Source: Desulfatitalea tepidiphila | Lineage (GTDB): Bacteria > Desulfobacterota > Desulfobacteria > Desulfobacterales > Desulfosarcinaceae | Direction of reading: 5' to 3' | Assembly (NCBI RefSeq): GCF_001293685.1 | Contig: NZ_BCAG01000003.1 | Location: 930,001 to 994,000 of the forward strand | Length of the DNA: 64,000 nt | Shown: piece by piece, positions 5,368 through 45,597 of the stretch | How positions within the stretch are numbered: the stretch's first letter is position 1 | How the letters are laid out: each line of letters opens with the position of its first letter | Program-made: the position numbers and the translations under genes | Notes under the pieces: generated by a model | What the model was told of the DNA's origin: nothing | The model's database searches: none | The model's input: only the letters and a program-made list of their open reading frames with translations

Positions 5368-7341
5368 GTGGCCTCTGAGCTGAATCTATCGGACCTGGAG
5401 AAAAAAGTTGCCGAATTGGAGCAAAGAGAAAAGGCGCTTCTGAAGGAGCTTGATCTTTACAAGCTGGCCATCGACTCGGCGGAATTGGGAATTTGGGATT
5501 ACAAACCGCTGACAGGCGACTCCCGCTTCAGTTCGCAGTGGCTCGGCATGCTGGGGTATGAAACGGATGAATTGCCATCGACCTATGACACCTTTCTGAA
5601 CCTATTGCATCCCGATGACAAAGAGGCGATCGCGGCGGCCGTACACGATTTCGTGGCACAGCCTAAGGCCATATTTTCCTTAAAATTCCGGTTGCGAGCG
5701 AAAAATGGCGACTGGCGTTGGATCCATTCCAAGGGCGTGGTCGCCGCAACGGATCCGCAGGGCAGGGTGACCCGGATGGTCGGGGTGCATTTTGACATCA
5801 CCGATCGCCAGCGGTTGGAAATCGATTTGAGCACGACCCGTTTCAGCTTCGACAATGCCCCCATCGGTATTTACCGGATCGCGTCGGACGCCAGGATTCT
5901 GGATATTAACAAACAGGCAGCCATGAATCTTGGCTATTCGGTGGAAGAGATGCGCGGCATGACCCTCTTCGACATCGATCCGGACGTGAAAGGCGGCATA
6001 TGGAAGGAGCTCTGGAAGGTCTTGAACAAACGGGGAAATGACGGTTTTGAGAGAGTCCATAGACGCAAGGACGGTACCCAGATGCCAGTAGAGATTTCAT
6101 CCAAACTGCTCGAATATGACGGTACGCCATTTGCCATTTCGTTTGTCAAAGATATCACGGAACGGAAGAACGCGGAAAAGGAAAAGGAGTATTTGCAAAA
6201 GCAACTGCTCCAGGCCCAGAGAATGGAGTCGGTTGGCCACCTGGCCGGCGGCATCGCACACGATTTCAATAACATTTTGTCCGTCATCATCGCCAATGCA
6301 GATTTGGCGATGCGCAATCCGGCGGTGGGCAACAGCGCCGACCGTTATCTCAAGCAGATTCAGGATGCGGCATGCCGATCCTCGGATTTGGTCAGGCAGT
6401 TGCTCGCATTCGCAAGGAAACAGACGATCAAACCGGTCGTGCTGGACATCAACGAAACGATCGCCAAGATGCTTGGCATGCTGCGCAGGCTCATCGGGGA
6501 AAACATCGAGCTGACCTGGGTGCCCGTCCCGGAACGGTGCCGGGTGATGCTGGATCCTTCTCAAATAGATCAGTTGCTGGCCAACCTGATGGTCAACGCA
6601 AGGGACGCCATCGATGGCACCGGAAAAGTGACCATCGAGACCAAACGCGTCGAAATCAACGAATCGTATCGAAAGAAACGGTTATGGTTCAAGCCGGGCA
6701 TCTATGTGATGCTGTCCGTCAGCGATACGGGCTGCGGCATGGATAGGCAAACCCAGGAGCGGATTTTCGATCCTTTTTTCACGACCAAGGGTGTCGGGCG
6801 GGGTACGGGGCTGGGGCTGGCGACGGTGTACGGCATCGTCAGGCAAAACAAGGGGTTTATCCACGTGTCCAGCGAAATCGGCCGCGGAACCACATTCAAA
6901 CTCTATTTTCCAGCCACCGAGGTGCCAGTGGAGAAAATCAATTCGGGGATTTCCCCGGAGTCGACACTAACAGGCTCGGAAACGGTGTTGATCGTGGAGG
7001 ATGATCCGGGCATTCTGGAGGTCGCGGAAGCGATTCTGAGCCATTGCGGTTACACCGTCATGGCCGCTCGAGCCCCCGGGCAGGCCGTCGACATGGTGCA
7101 ATCTTCTTCCGGAAAGATAGACCTGCTGCTCACCGATGTGGTCATGCCGGTGATGAATGGCCGTGAGCTGGCTCAGCGCATCGAGGAGATCAGACCCGGC
7201 ATCAAATGCCTTTTCATGTCTGGCTACACGGCCGATGTCATTGCCGATCACGGTGTGCTGAACGAAGGGGTGAATTTTCTTTCCAAGCCGTTTACCGTAC
7301 CCGAACTGGCCCGAAAGGTGCGCGAAGTCCTTGACGGGTGA
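5368..7341 (+). CDS. PAS-PAS hybrid histidine kinase with C-terminal receiver
   Basis: Predicted cytoplasmic 657-residue hybrid sensor kinase. Order: short coiled coil (about 5-40), PAS domain with PAC ending DITDRQRLE (about 40-150), second PAS ending DITERKNAEKEKEYLQ (about 155-280), HisKA with phospho-acceptor His298 in GGIAHDFNN, HATPase with DTGCGMD and FDPFFTTKGVGRGTGLGL, then a receiver domain whose phospho-acceptor is Asp590 in LLTDVVMP. No membrane segment and no DNA-binding output. Start is the GTG at 5368 with strong GGGGAAGGG 7 nt upstream; a nearby ATG at 5363 is out of frame. No partner regulator is adjacent. It lies alone between a tRNA-Val remnant and tRNA-Val, suggesting possible past insertion. 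Signal unknown. Confidence 0.95.
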   Translation: MASELNLSDLEKKVAELEQREKALLKELDLYKLAIDSAELGIWDYKPLTGDSRFSSQWLGMLGYETDELPSTYDTFLNLLHPDDKEAIAAAVHDFVAQPKAIFSLKFRLRAKNGDWRWIHSKGVVAATDPQGRVTRMVGVHFDITDRQRLEIDLSTTRFSFDNAPIGIYRIASDARILDINKQAAMNLGYSVEEMRGMTLFDIDPDVKGGIWKELWKVLNKRGNDGFERVHRRKDGTQMPVEISSKLLEYDGTPFAISFVKDITERKNAEKEKEYLQKQLLQAQRMESVGHLAGGIAHDFNNILSVIIANADLAMRNPAVGNSADRYLKQIQDAACRSSDLVRQLLAFARKQTIKPVVLDINETIAKMLGMLRRLIGENIELTWVPVPERCRVMLDPSQIDQLLANLMVNARDAIDGTGKVTIETKRVEINESYRKKRLWFKPGIYVMLSVSDTGCGMDRQTQERIFDPFFTTKGVGRGTGLGLATVYGIVRQNKGFIHVSSEIGRGTTFKLYFPATEVPVEKINSGISPESTLTGSETVLIVEDDPGILEVAEAILSHCGYTVMAARAPGQAVDMVQSSSGKIDLLLTDVVMPVMNGRELAQRIEEIRPGIKCLFMSGYTADVIADHGVLNEGVNFLSKPFTVPELARKVREVLDG

Positions 7342-15224: not shown

Positions 15225-15316
15225 GCTCGAAAAAGGCAAATCATTCGAAAGAATGAGACGCAAAGCCACTGGCCTAAGTCCTGACCCATCGGGATATGGT
15301 AGCAGGGTTGCCGGGC
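15225..15316 (+). promoter_or_regulatory. Cyclic di-GMP-I (GEMM) riboswitch
   Basis: Matches the GEMM-I aptamer closely: GGCAAA (15235-15240), hairpin CATTC-GAAA-GAATG with its GNRA loop (15242-15255), the invariant GACGCAAAGCC (15257-15267), GGCCTAAG (15271-15278) and the receptor arm GGTAGCAGGGTTGCC (15298-15312). GCTCG at 15225-15229 can pair with CGGGC at 15312-15316 to close the aptamer. It lies in the leader made from the sigma-54 promoter and upstream of the surface-protein start. No T-run terminator follows, so control is more likely at translation (see 15342-15370). Confidence 0.93.
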
Positions 15317-33928: not shown

Positions 33929-34942
33929 ATGGATATCCTGATCGTAAAACTGGGAGCCTTGGGAGACATCATCAACACCCTCCCACTCGCGATTCAACTG
34001 AAACAGCATTTCAAGGCCCAAATTCATTGGATCACGGCCCCCTTGAGCTATCCGCTTCTGGCCGGACACCCCGATATCGACCAGGCCATCCTGTTCGACC
34101 GCAATAAGAGTGGGGTCGCCATCCGTTCATTGCTGCGTCGAATCAGGTCCCAACAATTTGACCTGGTGCTCGATCTGCAGCGAACAATGAAATCGGGCCT
34201 GATCTGCACCGCTGCCCGTGGCAAACGGAAAATCGGATTCGATAAGGGACGATGCAAGGAGATGACCTGGCTGCTGCCCTTCGAAAGAATACCGGCGGGC
34301 GATCCACATGCCCACATGGTCGATCAATACCTGGATTTTGCCCGCTACCTCGGTATCCCGGCCGGCAAGGTACAGTGGCACATCCAGTCCGGTGGGCATA
34401 AGGTCCAAGGGCTGCCCCGTCGTTACGTGGTGCTGAATATCGGTGCCACTAAACCGGCCAACCGCTGGACGGTTCAGGGATTCGCCGATCTGGCAATGAT
34501 GATTCGAAAACAGTGCGGTATGCCCTGTGTGTTGACCGGCGGACCGGAAGATGTGCCCATGGCTTCACAAATCGTCGAGCAGCCCCCTGATAGCAACATC
34601 ATCAATCTTGTCGGGAAAACGAGTTTGCTCGAACTCGTCGATCTCCTCAAGGACGCTATCATGGTGGTTACCTGCGATACCGGTCCGATGCATTTGGCCG
34701 TGGCTTTGGGCAAGAATGTGGTGGCTCTTTTCGGCCCTTCTGATCATCGGCGAACCGGGCCCTATCGTGGGAAAGTCATCCGCGCCAAGGTCGATTGCAT
34801 ACCTTGTAACCGGCGTAGCTGCCGTAAGCCCATTTGCATGTCCGGCATTCGGGCCGAGGATGTCTTCCCTGTCTTGAAAAAATATCGGGTTCTTTCGGAA
34901 ATCGATGAACCGGAAGTAAATGAAATAGATGATAAATTTTAA
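33929..34942 (+). CDS. LPS heptosyltransferase I-like (GT9)
   Basis: GT9-family transferase expected to add the first L-glycero-D-manno-heptose to Kdo of the inner core, using ADP-heptose from the gmhA/hldE pathway encoded at 48.6-50.8 kb. MDILIVKLGALGDIINTLPL is the typical WaaC start; further marks are IGFDKGRCKE, LNIGATKPANRWTVQGFADL, VTCDTGPMHLAVALGKNVVALFGPSD and a Cys cluster VDCIPCNRRSCRKPICM near the C-terminus that is also seen in relatives. Starts 1 nt after the lpxK stop. WaaC is the best fit, though another GT9 acceptor is possible. Its stop overlaps that of the convergent kinase. Confidence 0.9.
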   Translation: MDILIVKLGALGDIINTLPLAIQLKQHFKAQIHWITAPLSYPLLAGHPDIDQAILFDRNKSGVAIRSLLRRIRSQQFDLVLDLQRTMKSGLICTAARGKRKIGFDKGRCKEMTWLLPFERIPAGDPHAHMVDQYLDFARYLGIPAGKVQWHIQSGGHKVQGLPRRYVVLNIGATKPANRWTVQGFADLAMMIRKQCGMPCVLTGGPEDVPMASQIVEQPPDSNIINLVGKTSLLELVDLLKDAIMVVTCDTGPMHLAVALGKNVVALFGPSDHRRTGPYRGKVIRAKVDCIPCNRRSCRKPICMSGIRAEDVFPVLKKYRVLSEIDEPEVNEIDDKF

Positions 34943-35670
34943 TACGTTGCAGCTTGGATGGGGGTGCATAGCAGGTGGGGCAAGCCATGTTTAAGAACTG
35001 CCCGACACCATCGCCGACAATACCTCATCTTCAGACTTTCTAAACTTCCATGATATACCGTGCTCTTATCAAAATCGATGATATAGACCTGCTCTTGGTC
35101 GTCTACAAGAACGTTGCCAGGATGAAAATCGGCATGTAAGATTCGATTCTCAACCAAGAGTCTGACTTGCACAACGAGCCTTTCCATGATCCCTGAAATG
35201 CGCTCGGGAAATGTTTGGCTCAATTGGGCCAGGGTCTGGCAATTCGGTACCTTCCTTGAAATGAGCCAGCCTTCGTAAAATAGCCGCCCACGATAACCGA
35301 AGGCCAGGGGTTCGGGTACGTTGATGCCGGCCTTGCTGGCGCGTTCCATCTGTTCGTATTCGATTTGACCTCGTGTTTTTGAGATCCTCAAATAGTGTCG
35401 CTTGACCAGGTTTGCGATCAACCCACCGCGGTGGTAATGTTTGACGACAGTTGCGCCAAACCCTTCCAAGTGTGCATCTAAAACGGCAGTTCTGCCGGCC
35501 AAAAGGCCGTCTGGCTTTTGGGGCGGTTTTTTGAACACCTCGACCATCTGCCGGGTTTGAAGGGCCGTCAGTCGTTGTGAACTCCCGATCTTGAAATGAT
35601 CGATGCAATGACAAACGATATCACTCAAAAAGGACTCCCGTTCAACAGCGTAACCCGCTTCACTGGACAT
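34939..35670 (-). CDS. LPS core sugar kinase (KdkA/WaaP-like)
   Basis: About 243 residues of the lipopolysaccharide kinase family, protein-kinase fold. Visible: VVKHYHRGGLIANLVKRHYL (KdkA-type glycine/basic segment and catalytic Lys region), the catalytic loop HADFHPGNVLVD with Asp and Asn, and the metal-binding IIDFDKS. KdkA phosphorylates Kdo; WaaP phosphorylates heptose. The HADFHPGN loop with RGG..A..V fits KdkA better. ATG 35670 has AGGA 5 nt upstream. It lies 14 nt after waaF on the minus strand and is tail-to-tail with the heptosyltransferase at 33929. Confidence 0.87.
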   Translation of the reverse strand: MSSEAGYAVERESFLSDIVCHCIDHFKIGSSQRLTALQTRQMVEVFKKPPQKPDGLLAGRTAVLDAHLEGFGATVVKHYHRGGLIANLVKRHYLRISKTRGQIEYEQMERASKAGINVPEPLAFGYRGRLFYEGWLISRKVPNCQTLAQLSQTFPERISGIMERLVVQVRLLVENRILHADFHPGNVLVDDQEQVYIIDFDKSTVYHGSLESLKMRYCRRWCRAVLKHGLPHLLCTPIQAATY

Positions 35671-40350: not shown

Positions 40351-41157
40351 ATGGTTGATAAAACACTTCCGATATCTCTGGTAATCATTACCTATAACGA
40401 AGAGAAAAACATACGTCGATGCCTTGAAAGCGCTTTTGGGATGGTTTCGGAGATTGTCATAGTAGATTCCGGTTCTACAGATGGAACAACCCGAATCGCC
40501 TCCGATTACAACGCTCACGTTTATCACAACCCGTGGCCAGGTCATGTAGCTCAGAAAAATATTGCACTATCGAAATGCACCCAGCGATGGGCTTTATCTT
40601 TGGATGCCGATGAGGCCATGTCCATAGCTTTGCGTTTTTCCATTGAAAATTTATTCCGTCGAGGTGAACCGGATCGATCCGGATATTGGATCAATCGGAA
40701 GAATTTTTACCTTGGCGAATGGATAGAGCATGCTTGGTATCCCGAATGGCGCCTTCGAATGGTAAAAACAAACAAAGCCCTTTGGGTGGGATCCGATCCT
40801 CACGATAGATTGTCAGTCAGTGGCCCGACTGCTAAATTAACTGGAGATATTTTGCATTATTCATATGCCGATCTCCAAGATCATATCAGCCGGACCATCA
40901 GCTATGGGCGAATTGGGGCTCATACCCTGGTGAGTCGAGGACAGGATTTTAAATGGTATAAGCTTGTTTTTTCTCCTCTTATCAGGTTTGCTAAAAGCCT
41001 GATATTGAAACAGGCATGGCGGGATGGTTGGCGAGGATGGATTATCGCTTACTCCTCTCTGATAGCCTGTTTTGTAAAGTATGCTCTCGTGTTCGAAGCG
41101 AAATTGAATAGAGAATCCAAAGCTGATGAGGAGGCGGAATGGAAAGCGCCGAAGTAA
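40351..41157 (+). CDS. Glycosyltransferase family 2 protein, WaaE/KdtX-like
   Basis: About 269 residues. PISLVIITYNEEKNIRRCLE, IVIVDSGSTDGTTRIA, the DXD-like SLDADEAMS, and the family block YWINRKNFYLGEWIEHAWYP and WRLRMVKTN resemble WaaE, the inner-core beta-1,4-glucosyltransferase acting on heptose I in Klebsiella and Serratia. Ends with a membrane-associated hydrophobic segment (about 225-250). ATG 40351 has GAAGG 8 nt upstream; ATG 40345 is too close to it. Its end overlaps the sulfotransferase start by 19 nt, showing translational coupling. Confidence 0.88.
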   Translation: MVDKTLPISLVIITYNEEKNIRRCLESAFGMVSEIVIVDSGSTDGTTRIASDYNAHVYHNPWPGHVAQKNIALSKCTQRWALSLDADEAMSIALRFSIENLFRRGEPDRSGYWINRKNFYLGEWIEHAWYPEWRLRMVKTNKALWVGSDPHDRLSVSGPTAKLTGDILHYSYADLQDHISRTISYGRIGAHTLVSRGQDFKWYKLVFSPLIRFAKSLILKQAWRDGWRGWIIAYSSLIACFVKYALVFEAKLNRESKADEEAEWKAPK

Positions 41158-41948
41158 TATCGCTGAAATACCCGCTTGTATTTGTGGTGGGTATCGCCCA
41201 CAGCGGATCGACTTTGTTGGGAAAATTGCTTGACATGCACTCTCAAGTGTTGTGCGTCGGGGAATTGTTGCGCATAAGGGATGCAATAGAAAAGGCTTAT
41301 CCTTGCAGTTGTGGCAAGAAGCTCGAGGATTGCGATTATTGGCACAGACACATTGAATGGATAAAAAATGAGGCCGGCCTGAATTTCAAACACTTTACGC
41401 AAGGACTATATGCGAAATTGTGTGCACTTTCGGGCAAAAACGTCGCTGTCGATCTGTCAAAAACAAGGGTGTTGCGTATGATGGATGGTTTTTTCGTCAA
41501 TAGAATGAAGAGATTTAGAGACGCAGGCTTTATTCTGCTCCTGCGAGATCCCAAAGGGATAAGCGCCTCTGCGATGCGCCGAACAGATAAGTCGCTGGAC
41601 AGATTTTTAAATAGATATCTTAAATGGATGAACAGATTTCAGAAATTGGTTGATAACGAAGGTGACAGGGTGCTTATCCTGAAATACGAGGATTTATGCA
41701 ACACACCTGATCAGGAAATTATGCGTCTTTGTCAATTTATAGGTATAACATTCGAACCAGGAATGATGGCCCCTTCTGACAAAGAACATCATTTTGTTCA
41801 TAGCAGTACCTCAAATTATATGAAAAACTTAAACACCCTGAAAGTCGATAATCGCTGGCAGCATGAGCTCCGAAATGATGATATTGCGAAGATTGACTTC
41901 ATCATTAACAAGGTGAAGTTGTTAAGGCAGGCATACGCAGGTAGTTAA
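41139..41948 (+). CDS. Sulfotransferase family protein
   Basis: About 269 residues of the PAPS-dependent sulfotransferase fold. 5'-phosphosulfate loop FVVGIAHSGSTLLGKLLDMH, a Cys segment YPCSCGKKLEDCDYW common in bacterial members, the 3'-phosphate block FILLLRDPKGISASAM, and KYEDLCNTPDQEIMRLCQFI. ATG 41139 lies inside the end of the waaE-like gene and has a strong GAGGAGG, so they are coupled. Its place among core transferases suggests sulfation of an LPS sugar; the acceptor is not shown by sequence. A sulfate reducer has ready APS, but PAPS synthesis (APS kinase) is not in the window. Confidence 0.88.
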   Translation: MESAEVISLKYPLVFVVGIAHSGSTLLGKLLDMHSQVLCVGELLRIRDAIEKAYPCSCGKKLEDCDYWHRHIEWIKNEAGLNFKHFTQGLYAKLCALSGKNVAVDLSKTRVLRMMDGFFVNRMKRFRDAGFILLLRDPKGISASAMRRTDKSLDRFLNRYLKWMNRFQKLVDNEGDRVLILKYEDLCNTPDQEIMRLCQFIGITFEPGMMAPSDKEHHFVHSSTSNYMKNLNTLKVDNRWQHELRNDDIAKIDFIINKVKLLRQAYAGS

Positions 41949-42021: not shown

Positions 42022-43146
42022 ATGAGGGTGGCTTTGGTTCATCCGCACTATCGTCCAGACGGTGGTGCGGAGACGGCGGTTGTTCATACTTTAAATGCAC
42101 TGCGACTTAAGGGTGCACAGGTAAGTATCATCTCCAGGCATTGGTCAGAAAAGGACAGAGACAATCAGGTAATAACGTGCAATCCGTTTTATATCGGCAG
42201 ATTATGGCGTGAATTGGGATTCGCCAAGAAAGCAGAAGAAATTGTTTCCACACTGCAAGTCGATATCGTTCAATCTCAAATTAGAATGTCCGGTTGTGAT
42301 ATATATCGCGCAGGTGGAGGGGTGCATCGTGAATGGCTGCGTCAAAGGAACAGGATTTCCGGCCCTTTTAGAAGGTTGTTGACTATATTGAGTGCATATC
42401 ATGGCTACAAATTGCATTCCGAGAAGCAAATCTATTCTGATGAACGGTTGAAGGCGGTCATATGTAATTCACATATGGTGAGCCAAGAGATTAAAATGTA
42501 TTACGGAGTACCTGTTGAAAAGATCCATGTGATTTACAACGCAGTGGATCTCCGAAAATTCGATGCAACCGCCAATAAGGAAAGAGGGCGCAATCTTAGA
42601 GACCAATTGGGAATAGCGGATGATAAAATCGTTTTTCTTTTTGTCGGGTCTGGCTATGAGCGAAAGGGTCTATCCACGCTATTGGAGTGCATGGCGAATA
42701 TGCCGGGCGACTGCATTTTGGTCGTGGTTGGTAAAGAATCGCGTATACGGAAATACTATCGTAGATGCAGGCAGTTGGGCCTTTCTGAAAAGGTTATTTT
42801 CGCAGGAATGCAAAAGGATGTGGTGCCATACTATGCGGCTGCCGATGCCTTTGTTTTGCCAACATTATATGATGCCTTCGCCAATAGTGTTCTGGAAGCC
42901 ATGGCTTCCTCGTTGCCAGTCATCACAAGTTTAAAGTGCGGCGCTGTGGATCTCATCGAGAATGAACGAAATGGTTTTTTATGCGACTCCCTCGATAAAG
43001 AACTTATTATTAAGTACATGCACTTACTGAGAAACCCCGCTATTAGATCAACTGTAGGAGATGCAGGCCGGAAAACTGTTGAAAATTTCACTACAGAAAA
43101 TATGAGCAAACAACTCTATACTCTTTATGAAGAAATATTGGGTTGA
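42022..43146 (+). CDS. Glycosyltransferase family 4 protein, WaaG-like
   Basis: About 374 residues, GT-B fold, resembling WaaG (LPS glucosyltransferase I) in the MRVALVHPHYRPDGGAETAV start, the RAGGGVHREWLRQR segment, VICNSHMVSQEI, HVIYNAVDLRKFD, FLFVGSGYERKGLSTLLECM and the E-x7-E-like block LPTLYDAFANSVLEAMASSL. It would add the first outer-core hexose to heptose II. ATG 42022 follows a purine-rich stretch. The tandem-kinase gene overlaps its last 20 nt, an arrangement like the waaG-waaP pair of enterics and pseudomonads. Confidence 0.88.
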   Translation: MRVALVHPHYRPDGGAETAVVHTLNALRLKGAQVSIISRHWSEKDRDNQVITCNPFYIGRLWRELGFAKKAEEIVSTLQVDIVQSQIRMSGCDIYRAGGGVHREWLRQRNRISGPFRRLLTILSAYHGYKLHSEKQIYSDERLKAVICNSHMVSQEIKMYYGVPVEKIHVIYNAVDLRKFDATANKERGRNLRDQLGIADDKIVFLFVGSGYERKGLSTLLECMANMPGDCILVVVGKESRIRKYYRRCRQLGLSEKVIFAGMQKDVVPYYAAADAFVLPTLYDAFANSVLEAMASSLPVITSLKCGAVDLIENERNGFLCDSLDKELIIKYMHLLRNPAIRSTVGDAGRKTVENFTTENMSKQLYTLYEEILG

Positions 43147-44653
43147 AAATATGCTGCCGGTCAAAAGGCGCGTTGTTATAGCACCCTCATGGAAAGGTAA
43201 CCTTGAAGTCACTGCTTTGTGTGACAATTTAGAATTACAAGTATCGTCTGCCACCGCTGAAGTATTTAAAGATGACGCTGCAGCCAAGGTGGTGGCGACC
43301 GATTTTTTTTCACAGAGACTGATTGTGAAGCAGTACAATCCCAAGAACCTCCTAAAATTGTTGAGCCGAATGCTTAGAAAGTCAAATGCTCTAAAAACAT
43401 GGGAAAACGCAAATTATCTTTTCAATGAGGGCGTTGAAACGATCAGGCCGGTTGCATTGATAGAGGATCGTATCGCAATTTTCAGCATCAAATCTTTTTT
43501 TGTAGGAATATTTATTCCCGGAGACGACGCTAGGACATTTTTCAGGGATAGGAGCAAAACTTCCAGTGAGCGGCGTGACGTAGCGGAAAGAATCATCGAT
43601 TCACTGGTTGCGCTGCACTCAAAGAACATCTTTATAGGCGACACCAAGGACACAAACATCGTAATAGGGCTGGATGAAATTTTTTGGGTGGATCTGGAAG
43701 AATTGAGCCACCCGAGATGGAAATGGCTCCGGCGTAAAAAGATGATCCGCGACTGGCAGGTGTTTTTTTACAATTGGAGAAACGATAACCCCAGTCGGAA
43801 GCTTTTTTACGAGGTAGCAAAAGGTAGATTGGATCGACGGCTTTATTGGGCTCTTGTTAGACAAGTGGCATCTTACAGCAGAAAGAAGTTCAAAATTGAT
43901 GAGGTTCAATCACGATTATCGGGGGCAACCGACAATGCAGACAAAATATTGGCCCAGGTGAGACAGATTGTGCAAGGTTCGATCAATCCCGCCTGGGAAA
44001 AAGTGGAAAGTTCCAATTCCGCCATCGTTGCCCGCAGGGATATAGACGGTGCCTTGTTGTACTGTAAAGTATATCTCCCCAGAAACAATAAGGAAGGGTT
44101 GAAGCGATTGTTCAGGGCGGGGCGGGGAAAACGTGCGGTCAGAAACGAGCAAATGATGCGCGCTGCGGGCTTTTCTGTTCCTGAAACGCTTTACTGGGGG
44201 AGGCAAAAAGTGAGGGAATATACTGTCTCCATAGGCATCGATGGGATCTCGATGATTACTTGGTTGAATCAACACCGCCATGATCCAAAAGCCAAGCGCA
44301 CGGTGTTACGACGATTGGGCGAAGAAGTGGGAGCATTGCATTTGGCGGGATTTGCACACGGCGATCTGAGAATGGGCAATGTGCTGTTGCAAGGGCCACC
44401 CGAAATTCCAGAATTCGTGTTTCTCGATAACGAACGTACATCACATTTTAGAAAGATACCAAAAAGACTGGCCATTCAGAACCTGCGGCAGATCAATACG
44501 GACGCCGTATCCAGGTTGAGCCGAAGCGACCGGTTGCGGATTTTCAGAGCCTATCAGAGCGTGTATGGCGCTTTTAAAAAAAAGGCGGAAAAGAGAATGA
44601 TTGCAGAAATAGAACACCTGACCAGAAAACGGCTTGCCGCCGCGTTAAAATAA
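43127..44653 (+). CDS. Tandem LPS kinase protein: two protein-kinase-like (KdkA/WaaP-type) domains fused
   Basis: A 508-residue protein with two kinase-like halves. N-half (about 30-260): VKQYNP as a lysine strand, catalytic-loop equivalent FIGDTKDTNIVI with Asp172 and Asn177, and VDLEEL as the metal-binding Asp; the usual His before Asp172 is replaced. C-half (about 290-490): LYCKVYLPR strand, RNEQMMRAAGFSVPETLYWG, canonical FAHGDLRMGNVLL with Asp413 and Asn418, then FLDNERTSHF. WaaP-type enzymes phosphorylate core heptoses, and gene order after a waaG-like gene agrees. ATG 43127 overlaps that gene; ATG 43151 is an alternative. Both domains may be active, or the N-half may be degenerate. Confidence 0.87.
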   Translation: MKKYWVENMLPVKRRVVIAPSWKGNLEVTALCDNLELQVSSATAEVFKDDAAAKVVATDFFSQRLIVKQYNPKNLLKLLSRMLRKSNALKTWENANYLFNEGVETIRPVALIEDRIAIFSIKSFFVGIFIPGDDARTFFRDRSKTSSERRDVAERIIDSLVALHSKNIFIGDTKDTNIVIGLDEIFWVDLEELSHPRWKWLRRKKMIRDWQVFFYNWRNDNPSRKLFYEVAKGRLDRRLYWALVRQVASYSRKKFKIDEVQSRLSGATDNADKILAQVRQIVQGSINPAWEKVESSNSAIVARRDIDGALLYCKVYLPRNNKEGLKRLFRAGRGKRAVRNEQMMRAAGFSVPETLYWGRQKVREYTVSIGIDGISMITWLNQHRHDPKAKRTVLRRLGEEVGALHLAGFAHGDLRMGNVLLQGPPEIPEFVFLDNERTSHFRKIPKRLAIQNLRQINTDAVSRLSRSDRLRIFRAYQSVYGAFKKKAEKRMIAEIEHLTRKRLAAALK

Positions 44654-44688: not shown

Positions 44689-45597
44689 ATGAACACTTAT
44701 AAAAATTCAATGCACGTGCTTCTGTTTACCTTTTTATACGCCTTGGGGCTTATCCCCCGGAGATGGTCGTCCGCCATTGCCAATGCAATAGGGACTATAT
44801 GGTATGCTGTGGACAAAGGCCATAGAGATATAGCCCATGAAAACATGGCCAGAGTGTACGGTGACAAGAAGAGTCGGGTGGAAATTAGAAGCGCCACACG
44901 CCGTAGTTTTGGCCAGATTGCCCAAATTCCGTTTGAAATGGGGTGGGCCTTGAGAATGAACAGGCAGGATTTCATGCGGCACTGCAAGATCACGGGGCTG
45001 CCGAATTTGCGCCGGGCATTCGCCAAGGGCAAAGGCGTGTTGATCCTTACGCTTCACATCGGCAATTGGGAATTGCTACCTATGGCTTATATCGACAGCG
45101 GTTTGAATGTAAGTATGGTTTATCGGCCCTTGGACTTCAAACCTGCCGACGAGTTCATACTCAATTATCGTTCCAGACATGGGGCTCAGCCGATTCCTAA
45201 AAAGAAGTCCATGCGCCGGATATTAAAAGCTTTAGCACAGAGAGATTGCGTGGGCATATTGCTAGATCAGACAGCAGGCATGAAGGCTGGAATCTTGCTG
45301 GAGTTTTTTGACCATCCGGCGTGGACCAACAAAGGCCTGGCGCTGTTGGCCTCAAAGACCCAGGCGCCGGTGATCACTTCATTCCTGATACGTAATGGCC
45401 TGAATTATGAAGTCCATATCGGTCCGGAAATCCCACTGGTTCACACCGGCAGAAAAGAAGATGATGTTCGAATCAATACGCAGCGTTATAATCAAGCACT
45501 GGAGGAGATCATCCGCAAATATCCAGAACAATGGCTCTGGATGCACCGGCGATGGAAACAGAGAGGGAAAAAACGCAAAATCAAAAACGTATCATAA
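44689..45597 (+). CDS. Lipid A late acyltransferase (LpxL/HtrB family)
   Basis: Inner-membrane acyltransferase adding a secondary acyl chain to Kdo-lipid A. 302 residues: membrane anchor near residues 8-30, the H-x4-E active site in LTLHIGNWELLP, VYRPLDFKPAD, LLDQTAGMKAGILLEFF and LWMHRRWKQRG near the end, all standard for the family. Chain specificity (LpxL, LpxM or LpxP) cannot be decided. No clear ribosome site before ATG 44689. Its final 6 nt overlap the end of the convergent msbA. Confidence 0.91.
   Translation: MNTYKNSMHVLLFTFLYALGLIPRRWSSAIANAIGTIWYAVDKGHRDIAHENMARVYGDKKSRVEIRSATRRSFGQIAQIPFEMGWALRMNRQDFMRHCKITGLPNLRRAFAKGKGVLILTLHIGNWELLPMAYIDSGLNVSMVYRPLDFKPADEFILNYRSRHGAQPIPKKKSMRRILKALAQRDCVGILLDQTAGMKAGILLEFFDHPAWTNKGLALLASKTQAPVITSFLIRNGLNYEVHIGPEIPLVHTGRKEDDVRINTQRYNQALEEIIRKYPEQWLWMHRRWKQRGKKRKIKNVS

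Follow-up and report, generated by a model that had tools for sequence, protein, structure and literature searches.

A tandem WaaY-like and WaaP-like kinase in a lipopolysaccharide core locus of Desulfatitalea tepidiphila, a putative bifunctional sugar kinase

Does a single protein of Desulfatitalea tepidiphila carry two lipopolysaccharide (LPS) kinase sites, or one working kinase joined to a domain that has lost catalysis? The question is raised by a gene in a 64,000-nucleotide stretch of the genome (hereafter the window; contig NZ_BCAG01000003.1, positions 930,001 to 994,000), in which the initial annotation had seen a fusion of two LPS-kinase-like domains. Phosphates on the LPS core bridge divalent cations, holding the outer membrane together, and to our knowledge the core kinases have been studied one domain at a time. 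The open reading frame was present as annotated (Table 1), and the gene occurs once in the 7-contig genome. A promoter and terminator scan returned no more sites than were found in shuffled sequences.

Table 1. Positions in the window of the tandem kinase gene, its domains and predicted active-site elements, and neighbouring genes.
Feature	Position	Strand	Basis
Single-domain KdkA-like kinase (third kinase domain in the locus)	34939..35670	-	Pfam Kdo 59.4 bits
Sulfotransferase, at the start of the accessory block	41139..41948	+	Pfam Sulfotransfer_3 63.5 bits
GT4 glycosyltransferase, 3' end overlapping the kinase gene by 20 nt	42022..43146	+	Pfam Glycos_transf_1
Tandem LPS-type kinase gene	43127..44653	+	508 aa, no internal stop, two Pfam kinase domains
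N-terminal kinase domain, WaaY-like (residues 1-255)	43127..43891	+	Pfam PF06176; AlphaFold model
N-domain P-loop, residues 48-56 (KDDAAAKVV), Asp50 in place of the Gly of relatives	43268..43294	+	alignment
Lys68, predicted ATP lysine of N-domain	43328..43330	+	invariant, 40/40 aligned sequences
N-domain catalytic loop, residues 170-177 (IGDTKDTN), Ile170 at HRD His position	43634..43657	+	alignment
N-domain DFG equivalent, Asp189-Leu-Glu	43691..43699	+	Asp189 invariant, 40/40
C-terminal kinase domain, WaaP-like (residues 267-508)	43925..44650	+	Pfam PF06293; AlphaFold model
Lys314, predicted ATP lysine of C-domain	44066..44068	+	alignment; Arg in G717
C-domain catalytic loop, residues 411-418 (HGDLRMGN)	44357..44380	+	alignment
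C-domain DFG equivalent, Asp434-Asn-Glu-Arg (DNER)	44426..44437	+	alignment; Thr at Asp434 in G717
Lipid A acyltransferase of LpxL type, next gene downstream of the kinase gene	44689..45597	+	Pfam Lip_A_acyltrans 171 bits

Both halves were recognised by Pfam models, the N-terminal half by the WaaY family (PF06176) at 31.4 bits against a curated cut-off of 20.3, with the best stretch at residues 43-192, and the C-terminal half by the Kdo/WaaP family (PF06293) at 44.9 bits against a cut-off of 21.3, over residues 303-476. The protein fell well below the NCBIfam equivalog cut-offs for RfaP (25.3 against 170 bits) and RfaY (22.3 against 248 bits), and likewise below that for KdkA. The halves were modelled apart with AlphaFold because a combined MAFFT alignment stacked the N-half rows on the C-half, and each model covers one half. 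Mean pLDDT was 89.2 for the N-half (alignment with 38 relatives) and 87.8 for the C-half (11 relatives). The models include helices at the C-terminus, the part of WaaP that forms an acyl-ACP-binding subdomain. When compared with solved structures using Foldseek and VIA-align, the C-half was best matched by the heptose kinase WaaP (6DFL, chain A; E 1.2e-13, Z 20.4, rmsd 3.4 over 218 residues), while the N-half was nearest to PRPK/Bud32 (E 9.6e-10, Z 19.0) and its alignment with WaaP, covering 222 residues, had a Z of 18.0. On these models both halves are predicted to be protein-kinase folds. The initial annotation had named a non-kinase N-terminal half as the result that would count against it; since both halves group among protein kinases, that result was not obtained, and two kinase domains in tandem are supported by family scores and models alike.

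The catalytic residues lie where they had been placed, Asp172 and Asn177 within IFIGDTKDTN and Asp413 and Asn418 within FAHGDLRMGN, and position 170 is Ile, confirming that the histidine preceding Asp172 has been lost. That HRD histidine is present in 37 of 40 aligned N-type sequences, and the catalytic Asp and Asn in all 40. The P-loop glycine, found in 36 of the 38 N-half relatives, is replaced by Asp both in the window protein and in its nearest full-length relative, G717; it is Ile in E. coli WaaY, which also has Ser at the HRD His position (VSGDPHRGN). The C-half retains Lys314, His411, Asp413, Asn418 and Asp434. If a pseudokinase is taken to be a domain missing its ATP lysine, catalytic Asp or DFG Asp, neither half is one, as Lys68, Asp172 and Asp189 and likewise Lys314, Asp413 and Asp434 are all present, and by these strict residue criteria the window protein looks two-sited. 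PKA has Tyr at the HRD position, so that the histidine is not universally required, which counts against reading its loss as a loss of catalysis.

When 84,980 genomes were searched with the C-half alignment, 80 loci were identified. Neither a genome scan queried with the full-length protein nor a plasmid search found a relative. In 21 of the 80 loci the C-type domain was fused to a second kinase domain (17 in C-N order and 4 in N-C order); among the unfused loci, 11 had a same-strand kinase gene adjoining, 20 had another kinase within the fetched flanks, and 28 had none. X-N proteins, which form a third tandem class, occur frequently in the taxonomic order and phylum of the window organism. 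The premise of the initial annotation that most kinases of this type are single-domain therefore underrated tandems, with about a quarter of the C-half loci fused and two-kinase frames of about 500 amino acids frequent in the order and phylum. Tandem LPS-type kinases are common, not rare. Two of the C-N proteins (L088:7917-10250, 778 aa, and L140:3694-6069, 792 aa) have about 270 extra C-terminal residues that matched no Pfam family, and three other loci encode fusions of a C-half-type kinase domain with GT4 glycosyltransferase domains, in either order (L123:7878-9824, L143:7875-9824 and L159:6858-8702).

Loss of a site, defined as loss of the Lys, the catalytic Asp or the DFG Asp, was rare in this wider set, and most tandem proteins thus look two-sited. 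Among single-domain kinases it was seen in 2 of 60 C-type and 0 of 27 N-type domains. For N-type domains the counts were 0 of 30 in X-N proteins and 3 of 17 in C-N proteins, and for C-type domains 0 of 19 in C-N and 1 of 6 in N-C proteins. In X-N, the largest tandem class, the N-type sites were kept in 30 of 30 domains, as were the Asp, Asn and Asp of the X-type domain, with its Lys kept in 29. The second domains of three C-N fusions (L083, L084 and L145) are candidate pseudokinases, having either Gly or Asn for the DFG Asp, or Ala for the catalytic Asp.

G717, a protein of 530 aa from the same taxonomic order (E 3e-69), shares the N-C arrangement and is sister to the window protein in the trees of both halves (support 99 and 96). 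The N-C fusions among the 80 loci are Phycisphaerae proteins, colinear with the window protein (at best 30% over 486 columns, E 3e-44) and adjoining genes for LpxI, LpxD and a heptosyltransferase, identified by Pfam in one locus and by eye in the others. A single origin of the window/G717 and Phycisphaerae fusions was rejected by AU tests for both halves (p 0.014 for N and 0.003 for C), so the N-C architecture probably arose twice; this evidence for independent fusion is moderate, as the trees were quick searches with long branches. A pair in which an N-type gene lies just upstream of a C-type gene (L029/L115) was considered as the unfused ancestor and set aside; the pair is real, but its domains are placed elsewhere in the trees, and it thus shows partnership and not ancestry. 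In L076/L115, single-domain N-type and C-type genes overlap by 7 nt in the order of the fused protein, within an hldE-gmhA locus.

The N-half of G717 is canonical, HRD His included. In its C-half, on a branch of length 2.63, the ATP Lys is replaced by Arg and the DFG Asp by Thr, so that two sites are not always retained in the fused lineage and one-site versions may exist. We regard this decay as a lead, since a Lys two residues further on could substitute and the genome is a draft, 77% complete. Tentatively, tandem LPS sugar kinases may form a recurrent, unnamed architecture of several origins in which, within the lineage of the window protein, either half can decay to leave a kinase-pseudokinase pair, one domain regulating or feeding the other. 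The literature that we searched held no description of such a design for LPS core kinases.

The gene lies in a locus that reads lptF, lptG, lpxK, a heptosyltransferase, the KdkA-like kinase and a second heptosyltransferase on the minus strand, a GT4 gene, a member of the O-antigen ligase family, two GT2 genes, the sulfotransferase, a further GT4 gene, the tandem kinase, lpxL, msbA, gmhA and hldE; the names lptF/lptG, lpxK, msbA, gmhA and hldE, and a WaaE-like identity for one GT2, are our own reading of the sequences. With the KdkA-like gene, which scored 94.9 bits against an NCBIfam KdkA equivalog cut-off of 142, the locus holds three kinase domains, as the initial annotation had counted. None of the other ten genomes of the genus, some of which are incomplete, carries the tandem kinase gene. 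In the matching locus of one of these relatives (G009), the WaaE-like gene leads directly into lpxL, with the sulfotransferase, GT4 and kinase genes missing, and the tandem kinase is therefore assigned to an accessory block. The GC content of this block and its immediate upstream neighbours is 0.42-0.45, compared with 0.52 for the window. Within the kinase gene, the N-half (0.431) resembles the AT-rich upstream block and the C-half (0.496) the lpxL side, a step too small to base a claim on, and none is made from it.

Our moderately favoured reading is that the gene encodes a bifunctional sugar kinase that takes part in assembling the inner LPS core, with two sites for two sugars of one lipid A-core molecule. 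The halves would be separate ATP-dependent kinases, each belonging to the WaaP/WaaY/KdkA superfamily, and would probably phosphorylate different sugars of the same growing molecule, most plausibly two heptoses, the WaaP-like half acting on HepI and the WaaY-like half on HepII. Phosphorylation would take place in the cytoplasm, ahead of export by MsbA, and the fusion would hold two consecutive steps on one polypeptide. The analysis shows the two folds, the conserved residues, the LPS-core neighbourhood and the recurrent pairing of the domain types, and we infer the activity of both halves, the sugars acted on and the order of steps. The multi-site core phosphorylation proposed in the initial annotation is the likeliest role. 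Because the protein lies below both equivalog cut-offs, HepI and HepII are assigned solely by its likeness to WaaP and WaaY.

The strongest challenge to two working sites is that catalysis falls to the C-half, while the N-half, its own catalysis lost or being lost, binds substrate, ATP or a partner or regulates the C-half, the roles being reversed in G717. The N-half lacks both the HRD His and the P-loop Gly, and the histidine, which the N-half of G717 retains, is needed in P. aeruginosa WaaP, where the H161A variant fails to support growth (PMC6147952); the altered C-half of G717 on its very long branch, and the essential residues lost from some N-type domains of C-N fusions, point the same way. 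Nonetheless, Lys68, Asp172, Asn177 and Asp189 are all kept, both sites persist in most tandem relatives, and E. coli WaaY, an active kinase that adds phosphate to HepII (PMC3526765), works without the same two residues. The lost histidine was therefore ruled out as proof of a pseudokinase. It is unusual and may lower activity, and it leaves a weak hint of a pseudokinase in the N-half; of the suggested pseudokinase regulator fused to a kinase, the missing histidine stood, whereas the retained residues and the example of WaaY speak for a working site, and we consider such a pair unlikely, if worth taking seriously.

The two sites could also serve other sugars than those of the HepI/HepII inner core, such as an outer-core sugar from the accessory block, or could both act on one sugar. 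The gene shares its accessory block with a sulfotransferase and a GT4, and the otherwise matching G009 locus lacks this block. Since the KdkA-like kinase and both heptosyltransferases are present in G009 all the same, the basic core can do without the tandem kinase. We nevertheless think such targets rather doubtful, as in fold and family both halves are closest to core kinases, and relatives adjoin genes for heptosyltransferases and for lipid A synthesis. It is highly improbable that the protein is a protein kinase, or another kinase unconnected with LPS, that happens to be located in the locus: although its structural neighbours include Bud32/PRPK and Hanks-type kinases and it is matched in sequence by Bud32 models, the LPS context recurs in the window, G717 and Phycisphaerae, and the domain is fused to glycosyltransferases in three loci.

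Compared with the HepI kinase WaaP (RfaP), the C-half belongs to the same Pfam family and has the Lys, HxD and Asp, but WaaP is a single domain with His in place of Asn418 and DLHR in place of DNER. The HepII kinase WaaY (RfaY) is likewise a single domain, sharing about 23% identity with the N-half over 154 columns, the kept Lys, Asp, Asn and Asp, and the absence of the P-loop Gly and HRD His. KdkA, the Kdo kinase, is of the same superfamily and has a counterpart in the locus, but is also single-domain, and neither tandem half is specifically KdkA-like. The X-N class (about 485 aa) and the C-N class (about 530 aa), from Desulfobacterota and other groups, resemble the window protein in having two LPS-type kinase domains, and differ from it in domain order or in the first domain; we found no characterisation of either class in the literature searched. 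In Pseudomonas aeruginosa, the LPS-core kinase operon encodes PA5006, a putative LPS kinase at least 493 aa long that self-interacts in two-hybrid tests (PMC8707732). Judged by its published length alone, it fits a tandem kinase and probably has two domains, and it may belong to another tandem class. No description of LPS-core kinases in tandem was found in the literature searched.

If the recurrent two-site reading is correct, two core phosphates would often be added by one coupled enzyme, and the window protein and G717 would form a natural test case for loss of catalysis in one domain of a pair. It would also offer an annotation route for many proteins of about 500 aa that are now named at best 'LPS kinase'.

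The sulfotransferase gene beside the tandem kinase (41139..41948) probably encodes its partner in decoration of the core, and this neighbourhood suggests phosphate and sulfate on the same core. The G717 contig carries two sulfotransferases on the minus strand (L175:4328-5149 and 6516-7340), along with a GT4 and a heptosyltransferase; a core both sulfated and phosphorylated is possible. Elsewhere in the window, a c-di-GMP-I riboswitch was detected at 15225-15315 on the plus strand (84.3 bits).
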